Positions 31,341 to 37,624 of a stretch of 62,439 bases of DNA are shown one piece after another. A program made the translations under genes and the position numbers. The stretch comes from Actinoallomurus sp. (lineage in GTDB: Bacteria > Actinomycetota > Actinomycetes > Streptosporangiales > Streptosporangiaceae), in the NCBI GenBank assembly GCA_025964685.1, contig JAOPYG010000108.1:1-62439 (forward strand), written 5' to 3'. Every line of letters starts with the position of its first letter. Positions within the stretch are counted from its first letter, which is position 1. A model generated the notes under the pieces. The model did no database searches, was not told the origin of the DNA, and was given only the letters and a program-made list of their open reading frames with translations.

Positions 31341-33395
31341 TTACTCCGTGGCCTCTTCGGTCTGCTTGGTCTCCGTGGTCTCCCGCGACCGCCGGTCGAG
31401 CGAGGCGAGATAGGCGTTGTAGTCGGACAGCTCGTCGTCGGCCTTGGCCGCCTCGGCCCGGTCGGCCTGCCGCTCGATCCGCCCCGCCAGCCGCCGGTCG
31501 TCGGCGTACCACTGGAACACCAGAGCGATCAGCACGATGAACGTCGGGATCTCCCCGAACGCCCAGGCGATCGAACCGCCGGTGTGCTGGTCGGACAGGA
31601 TCGACGTGCCCCAGGGACGGTGCAGCGCGGTGTACCACCCGGAGGCGATCGGCGCGCCGAGGTTCATCAGCGCGATGCCGAAGAACGCGTGGAACGGCAT
31701 GGTCACGAACAGCAGCAGCATCTTCGCCAGGTACGGCAGCTTGCGCGGTGTCGGGTCGACGCCGATCAGCACCCAGAAGAACAGTGAGCCGGACGCGAGG
31801 AAGTGGAGAAGCATCGCGAGGTGCCCGACATGGGCGCGCATCAGGTAGCCGAACAGCGGTGTGAAGTACACCGCGTAGGTGCTGACGATGAAGATGACCG
31901 TGGCCGTGGCCGGATGGCCGATGAACCGCATCGCCCGGCTGTGCAAGATGATCGTCAGCCACTCGCGTGGCCCGCGGTCGCCCCTGATGGCCGCCGGTTT
32001 GAGCGCGCGCAGCGCGAGCGTCACCGGGGCGCCCAGCACGAGCAGGATCGGGCTCAGCATCGACAGGACCATGTGCTGGATCATGTGCGTGCTGAACAGC
32101 ACCGGGGAGTACGTCGCGATCCCGGTCATCGTGACGGCGACGATCGTGACCAGGCCGATCGCCCAGGAGATCGTACGGCCGATGGGCCAGGCGTCGCCGC
32201 GCGCGCGCAGCCGGGTGAGACCGGCCGCGTACAGGCCGCCCAGCACGATCACGAGCACCGCGAAGAACAGGTCGGGCCGCCACATCGTGAGCAGCCGGCC
32301 GACCGTGATCGGCGGCGGCATGGGGAAGCCCATCATGCTGGTGACCGGATCATCGCCCAGGTCGGAGGCGGGCGGTGCGGTGCGCGCCAGCGCGACGGCG
32401 ACGCCGAGCGTCGCGGTCATCAGGATGACCTCGACACCGGCGAGACGGGCGAACGCCCACGGCGGGCGGGTGACGGCCGGGCGGGCGTAGCCCTTGGGGC
32501 TGTGCGCCATGAGGACCGGCAGCGTCCGCTCGCGGTGCAGGTAGCCGAAGACGCCCAGAACCGTGAAGAGGGCCAGCTTGACCAGGACCAGCCGGCCGTA
32601 GTCGCTGGTGTAGAGCAGTGACGGGTCGGGCAGCCGGGACACGACGTTGGCGGCGCCGCTCACCCCGACGGCGACGTAGCACCAGAGCGCCATCCGGCTG
32701 AACCGCCCGGCGGCGACACCCAGATGGTCACCGCCCTGCACGGCGTGCCAGACGAGGAGCAGCAGGCCGCCCACCCATGGGGACAGCGCGAGGATGTGCA
32801 TCGCCAGCCCGCTGATCGCCAGCTCGTGGTTGGGCGAGGCCGCGGAGTGACCGGTGAGCGGCGGGGGCAGCAGGGCGATGAGCGCGACGACGAGCAGTCC
32901 CGCGGCGCTGCCGGGTGAGACGGCGGTGCGTGCCAGCAGCGCGATCAGTGCAGCCAGCAGGACGACGAACATGAGCGCGGTGCCCTGCGGGAGCTGGCCG
33001 ACGTAGCTGGACAGCTCACTGCCGCCCACCACCTTGCCCGCCGGCACGCCGAGGATGTCGGAGACCGTGAAGATCAGTGTGGCGGCCGCACCGGCGGCCC
33101 AGAAGGCGGCGATCCAGGACGCGCCCCGCAGGTATCGGACGGCCTGCGGGTCGAGCGTCCCGCGCATGGACGGGAGCAGTACCGCGGCCCCAAGGAGTAC
33201 GCCGACGGTCAGCGTGCCGCCGGCCTCCATGACGAACCGCGAGACGGGCAGCCCCCAGCGGGTCAGCGTGCCGGCGTCGCCCAGGCCAGGAATCACCTGC
33301 TCACGGAGCGCGCCACCGGCCAGACCGGCGACGACCAGCGCGACGAGGCCGGCGACGGCTGCCGCCGCCGCGATGTACGGCCCTCGCCTACGCAC
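31341..33395 (-). CDS. CopD copper-uptake domain fused to CtaG cytochrome c oxidase assembly domain
   Basis: About 684 residues with ~15 membrane segments. Residues ~1-310 resemble CopD, with paired His in the membrane (GHSAASPNHELAISGLAMH, positions typical of copper handling); residues ~340-640 are CtaG_2 (caa3_CtaG), with THMIQHMVLSML, HFLASGSLFFWVLIGVDPTP and MPFHAFFGIALM. The fusion is common in actinobacteria and is thought to deliver copper to the oxidase. The charged C-terminal tail is cytoplasmic. I prefer the GTG at 33395; a TTG at 33440 would add 15 Pro-rich residues without a ribosome site. Confidence 0.88.
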   Translation of the reverse strand: MRRRGPYIAAAAAVAGLVALVVAGLAGGALREQVIPGLGDAGTLTRWGLPVSRFVMEAGGTLTVGVLLGAAVLLPSMRGTLDPQAVRYLRGASWIAAFWAAGAAATLIFTVSDILGVPAGKVVGGSELSSYVGQLPQGTALMFVVLLAALIALLARTAVSPGSAAGLLVVALIALLPPPLTGHSAASPNHELAISGLAMHILALSPWVGGLLLLVWHAVQGGDHLGVAAGRFSRMALWCYVAVGVSGAANVVSRLPDPSLLYTSDYGRLVLVKLALFTVLGVFGYLHRERTLPVLMAHSPKGYARPAVTRPPWAFARLAGVEVILMTATLGVAVALARTAPPASDLGDDPVTSMMGFPMPPPITVGRLLTMWRPDLFFAVLVIVLGGLYAAGLTRLRARGDAWPIGRTISWAIGLVTIVAVTMTGIATYSPVLFSTHMIQHMVLSMLSPILLVLGAPVTLALRALKPAAIRGDRGPREWLTIILHSRAMRFIGHPATATVIFIVSTYAVYFTPLFGYLMRAHVGHLAMLLHFLASGSLFFWVLIGVDPTPRKLPYLAKMLLLFVTMPFHAFFGIALMNLGAPIASGWYTALHRPWGTSILSDQHTGGSIAWAFGEIPTFIVLIALVFQWYADDRRLAGRIERQADRAEAAKADDELSDYNAYLASLDRRSRETTETKQTEEATE

Positions 33396-33590
33396 GGGGT
33401 CCGCCGGCGGGGGTGCCCGCGGGAGAAGCAGAGGAGGCAAGGCGCGGAAGGCACGCGAGCCGAGGAGGATTCGTCATGGAGGCGAAGATCGATCTTTCCG
33501 GGTGAGCTGCCGGCACGGACCTTCCCACCTTATTCACCACCCGCCGCAGGTCCGCCCCGAGTGGCCTTTCAGCGTCGATACTTTCCCCGC

Positions 33591-34889
33591 TCAGAGGCCC
33601 GCGCAGGTGAGGGCGTGGCGGTAGGCCTCGGCGCGATGTTCTTCGTCGCCGGTCTCCGACAGCAGCTCCGCGAGGGTGAACCAGCCCTCGGCCACCTCGC
33701 GGGAGGGCTCCATCTGCCGCAGGAACGCCGTCGCCCGGTCCAGTATCTCGGCGGCGTCCTGCTCGCGGCCGAGGCGGATGCGGGCCTCTCCCAGGACGAG
33801 GAGCGCCCCCGCGGTCGCCGGGCGGGGTTCGGTGCCGAGGAGCTCCAGGGCCTCGGCGGCGTGGTCGGCGGCGCTGCGCGGGCGCCCCGTCGCGAGCTCG
33901 GCGCGGCCGAGCTCGGTCAGGCAACGGGCGATGTCGATGCCGCCGGCGGCCGTCGCGGTCATCTCGCGCATGGCCCGCTGGAGTTCGTCGCGGGCGCGCT
34001 CGGCGTGGTCGGGGCGTGCCAGCAACATGAGCGTGCCGTACTCGCCGCGAAGCCGGCTGAGGTTGCGCAGGTCGGCGGCCTCCCCGAGCAGGGCCAGCGC
34101 CCGTTCGCCGTAGATCACCGCCTGCTCGAAGTCGGCCTGGTAGCGGGCGACGATGGCGGCCTCCCAGTAGGCGGCCATCCGCGCGGCCGGGCTGCCGAGC
34201 GCGTCGGCGTGCTCGATCAGGCGGTCGGCGAGCTGGCGCCCGCTGACCAGGTCACCGCGTTCGAGGTAGGCGCCGACCAGCGTGGCGCCGAGCTTGACGG
34301 TCTCGTCGGTCCAGGGGCCGGGTTTGGCGGTGACGCGCGCGAAGGCACCCTCGGCCACCGCGACGCTGCGGGCCGCGTCACCCTTTTCGCGGTGACAGCG
34401 CGACATCGCGATGTTGAGCCGGATCCACTCGTCGGCGTCGTAGTCGGGTGACAGGACGGCGGTCAGCGTGGCGAACTCCTGGAGCGCCTCCTCGAGCTCC
34501 CCGGTCGACTCCAGGGCGAGCGCGTGCGCCCACCGCGCCCGGCGCGCGTACTCCGGCAGCGAGGTCAGGTCGGGGTCGTCCAGCAGCTCCGTGAGCCGGT
34601 CGCGCGCCTCGGACGCCTCGCCGTTCTGCAGGGCGATCTCGGCGTACTCGATGATCACGCGCATCCGGTCCTGCGCGTCCTCGTCAATGCCGCTTGACAG
34701 ATATGAGGCGGAACACCCGAGTTTACGCGCGAGGAGACGCACGACATCGGGTGTCGGTATGCGCTTACCGCTTTCGATCAGGGAAACGTAGCTGTCGGAC
34801 AGCTCCGGGAGGGCCAACTGCGCCTGTGACAGGCCCTGACGAATCCGGGTCATTCGGATCCGGTGCCCTAGTGATCCTTGACTGTCCAC
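33591..34889 (-). CDS. XRE-family regulator with TPR domain (RRNPP-like candidate receptor)
   Basis: 432 residues from GTG 34889. An N-terminal XRE helix-turn-helix (residues ~9-63: GLSQAQLALPELSDSYVSLI, then ESGKRIPTPDVVRLLARKLG) is followed by about nine TPR-like helical repeats to the end (e.g. GELEEALQEFATL, QADFEQAVIYGERALALLG, GRPRSAADHAAEALELLG). This is the architecture of Rgg/PlcR/NprR-type regulators that bind short peptides in the TPR groove. The gene is divergent from an ORF for a 45-aa secreted peptide (34932-35069), with only 42 bp between the starts. A direct regulator-signal pair is inferred from this arrangement. Confidence 0.85.
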   Translation of the reverse strand: MDSQGSLGHRIRMTRIRQGLSQAQLALPELSDSYVSLIESGKRIPTPDVVRLLARKLGCSASYLSSGIDEDAQDRMRVIIEYAEIALQNGEASEARDRLTELLDDPDLTSLPEYARRARWAHALALESTGELEEALQEFATLTAVLSPDYDADEWIRLNIAMSRCHREKGDAARSVAVAEGAFARVTAKPGPWTDETVKLGATLVGAYLERGDLVSGRQLADRLIEHADALGSPAARMAAYWEAAIVARYQADFEQAVIYGERALALLGEAADLRNLSRLRGEYGTLMLLARPDHAERARDELQRAMREMTATAAGGIDIARCLTELGRAELATGRPRSAADHAAEALELLGTEPRPATAGALLVLGEARIRLGREQDAAEILDRATAFLRQMEPSREVAEGWFTLAELLSETGDEEHRAEAYRHALTCAGL

Positions 34890-34931
34890 ATTAACCCGCT
34901 TTTACTCGACCGTTGATACGGAGACTGTTGC
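34878..34931 (+). promoter_or_regulatory. Promoter and ribosome-binding site of the small secreted peptide
   Basis: TTGACT at 34878-34883 and TTTACT 17 bp downstream form a plausible -35/-10 pair on the plus strand. GGAGA at 34920-34924 lies 7 nt before the ATG at 34932. The -35 box overlaps the first codons of the divergent XRE-TPR gene, so regulator binding here could control both genes. Confidence 0.5.
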
Positions 34932-35069
34932 ATGAATCGACTCATGAGGGCCGCGGCCACACTTACCGTGATAACTGGCATTTCGCTCGTCCTCGGAAGC
35001 ACGACCGCGATCCCCGCCGTCACCAGCGCCGGACGCCCGGGTGCACCCCAGGTGTTCCACTGCTGCTGA
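34932..35069 (+). CDS. Small secreted peptide precursor (45 aa), candidate pheromone
   Basis: ATG 34932 behind GGAGA, stop TGA at 35067-35069. N-terminus MNRLMRAAATLT is positively charged, followed by a hydrophobic core VITGISLVLGSTTAIPA (about residues 13-29). A likely signal-peptidase site follows (IPA or TSA). This leaves a short mature peptide of 12-16 residues ending in GRPGAPQVFHCC. Two terminal Cys and a Gly/Pro-rich stretch are unusual for random sequence. Terminator-like hairpin 78 bp downstream. Together with the divergent XRE-TPR gene this looks like a secreted signal gene; no homologue is known to me. Confidence 0.65.
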   Translation: MNRLMRAAATLTVITGISLVLGSTTAIPAVTSAGRPGAPQVFHCC

Positions 35070-35146
35070 CGTTCCCCTCTTCAAAAGGATAGTTTTCTCC
35101 GGCTTGTTCTAGAAGCACCTTCGGAAAGATGCTTGAGAGGGGCCCG

Positions 35147-35174
35147 CGGGGGTCCGGCATGAACCGGGCCCCCG
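35147..35174 (+). terminator. Hairpin downstream of the small peptide gene
   Basis: CGGGGGTCCGG (35147-35157) pairs with CCGGGCCCCCG (35164-35174) at 10 of 11 positions around a 6-nt loop. It fits a terminator for the peptide gene, isolating it from the dehydrogenase gene that follows. Confidence 0.6.
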
Positions 35175-35308
35175 GAGCACCCATAGATGGCCATATCGGG
35201 AGATCTCGCCAAAGAGCCGCAACCGATTCGTGAGATCGTCCCTGTTCCTTTCTCCTTCGCGCCTGCTCTACTGCCCACAGGCCGGGTATGGGACGAGAGG
35301 TGAGCGTC

Positions 35309-37624
35309 GTGACGAAACAGGACGGTCCCCGCGCGCGGGAGGGCGCCCCGGTCACCGGACGGTCGTTCGCGGGCGGCGTCGGTGACAGCGCCCCGCGCCC
35401 CGACGGCGTGCTCAAGGTGCGGGGCGCGTTCGCGTACTCCTCCGACCTGTGGATGGACGGCATGCTGTGGGGCGCCACGCTGCGCAGCCCGCATCCGAGC
35501 GCCCGCATCCGCGGCATCGACGTGACCGAGGCGGTCAAGCTGCACGGCGTGCACGCCGTGCTCACCCACGAGGATGTCCCCGGCGCCAAGCACTACGGCC
35601 TGGAGCTGAAGGATCAGCCCGTGCTCGCCATCGACCAGGTCCGTTACCAGGGCGAAGCGGTGGCGATCGTGGCCGCGGACCATCCGGAGACCGCCCGCCG
35701 CGCGTGCGACCTGATCACGGTCGACTACGACGTACGCGAGCCGGTGACGGACGCGCGCGCCGCCGCGCTCGACCCGGCCTGCCCGAAGGTGCACGAGCGC
35801 GGCAACGTCGTACGCCACCAGCCCGTGCGGACCGGCGACACCTTCACCGCCGACGTGGTCGTGACGGGCGAGTACGAGGTGGGCATGCAGGACCAGGCGT
35901 TCCTCGGCCCCGAGTCGGGGCTCGCCGTGCCGGCCGAGGACGGCGGGGTCGACCTGTTCATCGCCACGCAGTGGCTCCACGTCGACCAGGAGCAGATCGC
36001 GCCCGTCCTGGGCCTGCCGCCGGACCGGATCCGGCTGACGCTGTCCGGGGTGGGCGGCGCGTTCGGGGCCCGCGAGGACTTGTCCATGCAGATCCACGCC
36101 TGCCTCCTCGCCCTGCACACCGCGCGGCCGGTCAAGATCGTCTACGGCCGTGAGGAGTCCTTCTCCGGGCACGTACACCGGCATCCGGCGACCCTTCGCT
36201 ACGAACACGGCGCCGGGCGGGACGGACGGCTCGTCTACGTCAAGGCCGAGATCATCCTCGACGGCGGGGCGTACTGCTCCTCCACTCCGGCGGTGGTCGG
36301 CAACGCCGCGTCGCTCGGCGCGGGGCCGTACGACGTGCCGAACGTCGCCGTCGACGCCTACGGGGTGTACACGAACAACCCGCCCTGCGGCGCCATGCGC
36401 GGCTTCGGCGCCGTGCAGGCCTGCTTCGCCTACGAGTCGCAGATGGACCGGCTCGCCGAGGCGTGCGGACTGGACCCGATCGAGATCCGCGTGCGCAACG
36501 CGCTGTCGGAGGGCTCACGCCTGCCGACCGGGCAGGTCGTGGACATGCCCGCGCCCCTCACCGACATGCTGCGCCGCGTGGCGAGGTTCCCCATGCCCGC
36601 GCCGGCCGACACGGCCGACCTGAGGAACCTGCCGGGCGGGGTGTCGAACACCACGCACGGCGAGGGGGTCGCCCGCGGCGTCGGGTACGGCATCGGCATC
36701 AAGAACATCTGCTACTCCGAGGGGTTCGACGACCTCTCCACGGCGCGGGTGCGCCTGGAGGTCTCGGGCGGTGAGGTCACCGTGCTGGTGCACACGGCGG
36801 CGGCCGAGGTCGGGCAGGGGCTGGTCACGCTCCAGGCGCAGATCGCACGTACGGAGCTGGGCGTCGAGCGGGTGACCGTCGCGCCCGCCGACACCACGGT
36901 GGGCTCCGCGGGCTCCTCCAGCGCGTCGCGCCAGTCGTACATGACCGGCGGCGCCGTACGGGCCGCCTGCGAGGCCGTGCGCGAGAGGGTGCTCCGTCTC
37001 GCCGGGATGCCCGGCGGCACCCTCAGCGGCGGGCACGTCGTCGCCGGCGGTACCGCGGTTCCGCTCGCCGAGGTGCTCGGCGACCGGGTGATCGAGGAGA
37101 CCCGGGAGTTCCACCACCGGCCTACGACGCCCCTGGACCCGCGAACCGGGCAGGGCGACTCCCACACGCAGTTCGCGTTCTGCGTGCACCGGGCGGTCGT
37201 CGACGTGGACGTCGAGCTGGGCCTCGTGAAGGTGGTCGAGCTGGCTGCCGTGCAGGACGTGGGCCGGATCCTCAACCCGATCGCCCTGGAAGGCCAGATC
37301 CACGGCGGGACGGCTCAGGGGCTGGGCCTCGCCCTGATGGAGGAGGTCCAGGTACGGGACGGCCGCATCCGTAACCCCTCCTTCACCGACTACCTCATCC
37401 CCACCATCCTCGACATGCCGCCGATGAGTCTGGAGATCCTGGAGAATCCCGATCCGCACGCGCCGTACGGGCTACGCGGCGCCGGTGAGCCGCCCACGCT
37501 GTCCTCGACCCCGGCGATCGTGGCCGCCGTACGGGACGCGTGCCGGCTGCCGCTGAGCCGGGTGCCGATACGCCCGGAGCACATTCTGGACGCGGCCGGG
37601 CGCGTTGGTCGAGGTCCGGCCTGA
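35309..37624 (+). CDS. Xanthine dehydrogenase-type molybdopterin-binding subunit (PucD/XdhB-like)
   Basis: About 771 residues (GTG 35309 after GAGAGG; an ATG at 35288 is also possible). Ald_Xan_dh_C a/b domain first (VLKVRGAFAYSSDL, LRSPHPSARI), then the molybdopterin-binding domain. Mo-pterin contacts are seen as VGGAFGAREDLSMQ, AMRGFGAVQ, EVGQGLVTLQAQI and the catalytic Glu in YGLRGAGEPPTLS. It hydroxylates purines or other heterocycles when assembled with a FAD subunit and a 2Fe-2S subunit, but neither is encoded here, so this is an orphan large subunit needing partners elsewhere. Confidence 0.87.
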   Translation: MTKQDGPRAREGAPVTGRSFAGGVGDSAPRPDGVLKVRGAFAYSSDLWMDGMLWGATLRSPHPSARIRGIDVTEAVKLHGVHAVLTHEDVPGAKHYGLELKDQPVLAIDQVRYQGEAVAIVAADHPETARRACDLITVDYDVREPVTDARAAALDPACPKVHERGNVVRHQPVRTGDTFTADVVVTGEYEVGMQDQAFLGPESGLAVPAEDGGVDLFIATQWLHVDQEQIAPVLGLPPDRIRLTLSGVGGAFGAREDLSMQIHACLLALHTARPVKIVYGREESFSGHVHRHPATLRYEHGAGRDGRLVYVKAEIILDGGAYCSSTPAVVGNAASLGAGPYDVPNVAVDAYGVYTNNPPCGAMRGFGAVQACFAYESQMDRLAEACGLDPIEIRVRNALSEGSRLPTGQVVDMPAPLTDMLRRVARFPMPAPADTADLRNLPGGVSNTTHGEGVARGVGYGIGIKNICYSEGFDDLSTARVRLEVSGGEVTVLVHTAAAEVGQGLVTLQAQIARTELGVERVTVAPADTTVGSAGSSSASRQSYMTGGAVRAACEAVRERVLRLAGMPGGTLSGGHVVAGGTAVPLAEVLGDRVIEETREFHHRPTTPLDPRTGQGDSHTQFAFCVHRAVVDVDVELGLVKVVELAAVQDVGRILNPIALEGQIHGGTAQGLGLALMEEVQVRDGRIRNPSFTDYLIPTILDMPPMSLEILENPDPHAPYGLRGAGEPPTLSSTPAIVAAVRDACRLPLSRVPIRPEHILDAAGRVGRGPA

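Follow-up and report, generated by a model that had tools for sequence, protein, structure and literature searches.

We describe a two-gene unit in which a helix-turn-helix (HTH) regulator with TPR repeats is paired with a small gene whose product starts with a predicted signal peptide and ends in two cysteines (CC). The pair is conserved, the peptide is under coding selection and its C-terminus is invariant in the CC class; the pairing recurs across families, gene orders and gene neighbourhoods. We came to it through a 62,439-nucleotide stretch of Actinoallomurus DNA (the window), and consider it likely that the two genes form an RRNPP-like peptide-signalling module, consisting of a secreted pro-peptide with a C-terminal dicysteine that is re-imported and read by a cytoplasmic TPR transcription factor.

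The gene, its start, its signal and its end are visible in the sequence, and we infer the rest of the path, from secretion, processing and re-import to binding, the DNA target and any density dependence, by analogy with RRNPP systems. On this analogy, the 45-amino-acid (aa) product would be exported via Sec and cleaved after an alanine (AIPA, AIAA or ATAA), leaving a peptide of about 16 residues that ends in CC. Once back inside cells, this peptide, or a shorter fragment from its C-terminus, would bind the TPR domain of the HTH regulator encoded next door, and the HTH would then grip the shared 42-bp divergent region, as well as other targets, differently.

The gene pair in the window

The presumed receptor is an XRE-type regulator of 432 aa encoded on the minus strand (33591–34889). 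It matches Pfam HTH_3 (4.5e-10) and several TPR families, TPR_12 among them, with the helix-turn-helix at residues 11–64 (34698–34859, minus strand). On the plus strand, an open reading frame (ORF) with an ATG start (34932–35069) encodes 45 aa, MNRLMRAAATLTVITGISLVLGSTTAIPAVTSAGRPGAPQVFHCC; its N-terminus is basic, a hydrophobic stretch follows and the last residues are QVFHCC. Neither Pfam nor NCBIfam has a match for this product. The analysis bears out the initial annotation, which had described an HTH-TPR regulator of this length 42 bp from a divergent ORF with its own ribosome site, a signal peptide, the QVFHCC tail and a hairpin behind it.

Our hydrophobicity rule predicts a Sec signal peptide at residues 1–29 (MNRLMR to AIPA; 34932–35018, plus strand), the cleavage point being set by eye on the genus alignment. 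Cleavage after this Ala would leave a predicted mature peptide of 16 residues, VTSAGRPGAPQVFHCC (35019–35066, plus strand), which fits the 12–16 residues first proposed; its Cys pair is encoded at 35061–35066. A GGAG (34920–34923, plus strand) 8 nt before the ATG is likely to be the ribosome site of the peptide gene, of modest quality. The 42-bp divergent region (34890–34931) presumably holds overlapping promoters and an operator; no promoter or operator was identified within it, and a promoter and terminator scan of 34780–35330 reported neither a sigma-70-like promoter nor a terminator. Past the peptide gene, the folding centroid places a hairpin at 35147–35174 (plus strand), with 11 mostly G/C pairs, a 6-nt loop and no T-run. 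Although absent from the terminator scan, it may be a terminator. The surrounding stretch (35070–35185) has a minimum free energy of −48.3 kcal/mol (z −1.8), equalled in 9 of 200 shuffles.

Paired peptides within the genus

Across eight Actinoallomurus genomes, the regulators fall into three groups. Group A comprises the window gene and its orthologues, with a divergent ORF of 44–46 aa ending in VFHCC or TIHCC in five of the eight genomes. In the other three, where the regulators are 71–72% identical, the peptide is absent, and because the AAAGGATAGTTTTC stretch that lies 3′ of the window ORF is still present beyond, this absence suggests loss. Group B regulators (about 50% identical) have a divergent 46–57-aa ORF ending in CC in all eight genomes (SSSACC, SSSMCC, VPIACC, VPIVCC, SFSRCC, PTSRCC, GDLTCC and GGLVCC), and the length differences among these peptides are whole codons. 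No divergent CC ORF accompanies the group C paralogues (about 37% identical; zero of eight). Examined genomes with both A and B thereby hold two paralogous receptors with differing peptide ends, for example VFHCC and SSSACC. At three loci (L013, L014 and L017), the 3′ end of the group B regulator has a small His-rich, lipoprotein-like ORF nearby, which contains TACGHSHHHVVHHHVVHH and is perhaps metal-binding.

The initial annotation had asked for a comparison of non-synonymous with synonymous change. Among orthologues of the window peptide from five Actinoallomurus species, pN/pS is 0.65 and dN/dS 0.56, which indicates purifying selection, and dN/dS falls to 0.40 over the last nine residues of the group A peptide. 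Six peptide sets gave pN/pS of 0.27–0.78 and dN/dS of 0.17–0.73, and the GC content of 108 peptide genes is 0.61, 0.60 and 0.74 at the three codon positions.

The 93 distinct CC peptides that we compared are 30–58 aa long (median 43). All 93 end in CC, in a set selected for that ending, and only six contain an additional Cys. The Cys codons vary (TGC TGC in 77 of 86, the rest with TGT), so conservation of the dicysteine is at the protein level. The preceding residues differ between close relatives, with H, W, Y, F and M favoured at position −3; a fixed CC behind a variable part is what one would expect of a signal whose specificity changes.

One feature of the DNA was considered as a promoter element and rejected. 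An early Gln codon of the regulator (within 34876–34881 of the window) is the rare CAA, which reads TTGAC on the peptide strand and could be taken for the −35 box of a peptide promoter. CAA is the first Gln codon in 52 of 58 CC regulators of the home family (f1), compared with 49 of 808 Gln codons deeper in the gene. This element is shared by the peptide-less C paralogues, in eight of eight cases, so it is not evidence for the peptide.

Survey across the phylum

Loci came from genome searches at the level of the family (120 genomes), the class (394) and the phylum (396), together with one named scan and plasmid records. Few candidates were scored per genome and E-values were strict, so that absence from a genome is not implied. 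A regulator was counted as paired when an ORF of 22–90 aa with a signal-peptide-like start, called by a home-made hydrophobicity rule, lay on the opposite strand and began between −60 and +300 of the regulator start. The classified set holds 221 distinct regulators, after 33 duplicates, six partial matches (L025–L030) and L210 were left out; one had too little upstream DNA, which gives a denominator of 220.

Among these 220 regulators, the divergent ORF ends in CC in 87 (one residue being allowed after the Cys pair), belongs to a Trp/Pro-rich (WP) class in 21 and has another end in 6; 106 have none. A CC peptide was found elsewhere nearby at 11 further loci: nine are tail-to-tail behind the regulator, one is upstream and codirectional and one lies about 1.9 kb downstream. 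(This tally counts 11 loci from 22 rows, with L221, which ends in CCG, and rows not ending in CC excluded.) The CC pairs span nine GTDB families (f1, f9, f14, f19, f20, f26, f27, f38 and f49), with genera that include Actinoallomurus, Actinocorallia, Rhizohabitans, Planotetraspora, Sphaerimonospora, Microbispora and Acrocarpospora; Nonomuraea gerenzanensis also has one. The check proposed in the initial annotation, whether homologues of the regulator stand beside a small divergent ORF with a conserved C-terminus, thus gave a clearly positive answer: the CC peptides of all nine families keep the terminal CC while the residues before it vary. About 60 orthologues, by contrast, have no peptide nearby.

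As a control, the same rule was applied to other genes of at least 200 aa in the flanks of the regulator loci, with 67 regulator copies excluded. A CC ORF was beside none of 428 such genes, and an ORF of any kind beside eight. The difference between 87 of 220 and 0 of 428 has a Fisher p of 1.6e-47 when relatedness is ignored; because the regulators are related, the real evidence is the number of families rather than this value. The 1.0 Mb of regulator flanks contains 232 small signal-peptide-like ORFs with a ribosome site, of which 23 end in CC. All but one of these are divergent beside a regulator, and the remaining one, on Streptomyces plasmid NZ_CP109191.1 (L260:8205–8369), is a predicted secreted ORF of the 50-aa class, ending in PLCC and about 1.9 kb from an HTH-TPR gene; it is annotated as the hypothetical protein WP_331750220.1.

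A held-out set of 26 regulator matches from the family, class and phylum searches was fetched after the rule had been fixed. With the rule unchanged, ten of the 26 have a CC peptide: eight of eight main-type regulators of f1 and two of two from f19, with none of 11 second-match f1 paralogues and none of five distant matches.

Sister forms of the peptide occur in the same regulator family. Nine regulators of an f1 clade around Planomonospora are accompanied by a peptide that lacks CC; eight of these peptides end in GWNHPG, GWGWPG, PWQWPI, AWNGPW or similar and the ninth in LGPLNNAE. Short ORFs from other classes of the phylum end in GYPWPK, NWPKH, KWPWG, APWPHCC or APWPPCC, and some f19 peptides combine both end types (PDWPGMCC). 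The WP class was defined post hoc, and its count in the control is 1 of 428. Loci with Trp/Pro-rich sister peptides are L055, L070, L072, L075, L168, L170–L172 and L226–L235. At four Streptomyces-like loci (f18; L248, L251, L310 and L311), the divergent signal-peptide ORF has an unrelated end without CC, possibly a further class. The phage collection yielded one fragmentary homologue of the regulator, on a faecal contig labelled bacteriophage (L282; MT836207.1), with no peptide seen.

Relation to known signalling systems

Like PlcR–PapR, NprR–NprX, Rgg–SHP, ComR–ComS and Rap–Phr, the system described here has a regulator with HTH and TPR domains beside a short pro-peptide gene with a signal peptide, predicted by the hydrophobicity rule to be of the Sec type; the conserved part lies in the C-terminal residues, and several receptor–peptide pairs can occur in one genome. 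It differs from these RRNPP systems in its hosts, which are Actinomycetota and not Bacillota, in the obligatory C-terminal dicysteine or Trp/Pro-rich end, and in receptors of about 420–440 aa whose nearest relatives are often peptide-less; peptide binding and import would here follow from the analogy. In the initial annotation the pair had been called an actinomycete analogue of RRNPP systems. The conserved pairing of a receptor-like protein with a peptide supports that description, and its pheromone role stays at the level of analogy.

The gamma-butyrolactones of Streptomyces are cell–cell signals with a cytoplasmic DNA-binding receptor. The present system resembles them in these respects and in its actinobacterial setting, and is unlike them in that a gamma-butyrolactone is an enzyme-made small molecule with an unrelated receptor. 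Actinobacteria are described as signalling mainly through small molecules such as butyrolactones in PMC10075063 and PMC13220807, the latter treating RRNPP in Firmicutes. The candidate families of RRNPP_detector, as given in PMC10075063, also have a TPR receptor of 250–500 aa adjoining a small secreted pro-peptide; that survey, as described there, covered complete genomes of Firmicutes and viruses only. We found no actinobacterial system of this kind in the open-access library searched, in agreement with the first reading of the locus; preprints and most subscription papers lay outside the scope of this search, so a description elsewhere is possible.

On sequence evidence, the pair is a widespread family and not a single oddity, with Trp/Pro-rich sister forms and some pairs arranged tail-to-tail. 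A bolder extension, which we regard as rather unlikely, is that it represents an ancient, phylum-wide pheromone class of Actinomycetota, separate from that of Bacillota, and that its commonest, dicysteine-ended branch could be read in only one thiol, disulfide or metal state and would so join population sensing to redox or copper. If the signalling reading is correct, Actinobacteria, the source of many antibiotics, would have a widespread peptide code that is written in genes and has receptors that can be named. Synthetic peptides of no more than about 16 residues would then allow a direct test of density control over development and secondary metabolism, and the code could be used to activate silent gene clusters. 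For a signal of this type, a fixed Cys pair at the end would be unusual chemistry, and the natural losses, Cys-free sister forms and two paralogous pairs per genome would serve as ready specificity experiments.

The receptor and its peptide-less relatives

A profile built from 53 regulator sequences has PlcR as its best non-designed match in the Protein Data Bank (PDB; 5e-13), over residues 3–189, that is, over the HTH and the first TPR part, both common modules; as a single sequence, the window regulator matches only designed TPR proteins there. Residues 191–290 (34020–34319, minus strand), with T203, A239 and N276, are a tentative candidate for the ligand site, picked out by weak differences in conservation. 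C paralogues keep 0.47 of the CC-consensus residues in this segment, compared with 0.91, 0.84 and 0.72 elsewhere. Retention in the segment is also low in distant CC regulators (0.55), and in Actinomadura-type regulators (0.81) it is about that of their peptide-bearing neighbours, the GPRVHCC group (0.80). Position 276 no longer holds Asn in the WP clade, the C paralogues, the three Actinoallomurus losses and half of the Actinomadura-type sequences, and N276 is missing from distant CC regulators as well. We treat columns N276, T203 and A239 as a suggestive lead from the alignment to the ligand site.

No CC peptide was found in the available flanks of 57 Actinomadura-type and three Actinoallomurus orthologues, nor in those of 25 C-type paralogues. 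Because these 60 orthologues and 25 paralogues lack one nearby, the regulator can work without a CC peptide, and the peptide-less members probably act without a peptide or with another ligand. These losses weigh more heavily than anything else against a simple obligate pairing. Mapped onto a tree of 181 regulators, the CC label requires 13 changes, compared with 60 when shuffled, so it is clustered, with repeated gain or loss. When genomes were searched with a DNA pattern for PRVHCC followed by TAA or TGA, no unlinked peptide was found in eight Actinomadura-type genomes; among 120 genomes the pattern matched four, all of them at known loci. The test is partial because the pattern missed two known GPRVHCC genomes (G055 and G095).

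Regulators that persist without the peptide also bear on the possibility of a toxin–antitoxin or bacteriocin-like pair, in which a membrane-active small peptide would be silenced by the HTH-TPR protein. The gene for a short hydrophobic peptide, running divergently from one for an HTH repressor-like protein, has the outline of such a pair. We nevertheless consider it very unlikely, given that orthologous regulators remain where the peptide is gone, that the product combines a signal peptide with a polar, variable mature part whose end is fixed, and that none of ten peptides tested against Pfam and NCBIfam had a match, to a toxin or otherwise, above a curated cut-off.

Gene neighbourhoods

The pair in the window is flanked by a gene for a CopD–CtaG protein (31341–33440) and a xanthine dehydrogenase gene (35288–37624), both named from Pfam. 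Across the home family, copC-like and copD-ctaG genes usually come after the regulator, and the other side holds xanthine dehydrogenase and a PucR-type regulator; CopC and PucR were named by eye, and CopD/CtaG and the dehydrogenase by Pfam on the window genes. The copC-like/copD-ctaG clusters c1 and c2 are present in 19 and 13 of 26 neighbourhood gene sets, respectively. The neighbours in f19 are aminotransferase, fructosamine kinase, ABC transporter and ribonucleotide reductase genes, and those in f26 are polysaccharide genes or GlnE. Among 20 loci, 17 with the regulator called, no further gene was common across families except in a few pairwise cases. Since the CC pairs span nine families with differing neighbours, the pairing itself is what is conserved; the peptide–regulator module is self-contained, and what it controls may differ between loci.

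Copper can be bound by vicinal thiols, and the copper-type genes of the home family raise the possibility that the secreted peptide works through metal or redox activity: its CC would bind Cu(I) or a different thiophilic metal, or report the redox state, and the regulator would sense metal or redox stress either on its own or by way of the peptide. In keeping with this, position −3 is most often His (15 of the 93 CC peptides), but Trp, Tyr or Phe is found there equally often, and some sister peptides are entirely without Cys. Elsewhere the pair stays while its neighbours change to polysaccharide genes, ribonucleotide reductase or GlnE. We therefore keep the copper link as a rival rather than an explanation, and think it quite improbable.

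Gene order and neighbours also weigh on a leader peptide or attenuator, in which the terminal Cys codons would sense cysteine supply. The window ORF has two consecutive Cys codons before its stop and a hairpin behind it, and amino-acid leader peptides, likewise short ORFs with a run of one residue near the end, have reportedly been described in Actinobacteria. In those, a signal peptide is not expected and action is in cis on a downstream biosynthetic gene, whereas here the signal-peptide-like N-terminus is retained and the ORF is under coding selection. No conserved amino-acid gene was found downstream in cis, as the genes there differ between families and in nine loci the ORF faces the 3′ end of the regulator; Rfam has no match within 34700–35330. 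Of the readings considered, this one seems to us barely credible.

The signalling module remains our preferred reading of the pair. As a separate observation, a plasmid of Streptomyces goshikiensis (L255:6896–7108) encodes a predicted secreted hypothetical protein of 70 aa downstream of an HTH-TPR gene, near a BTAD-type regulator.
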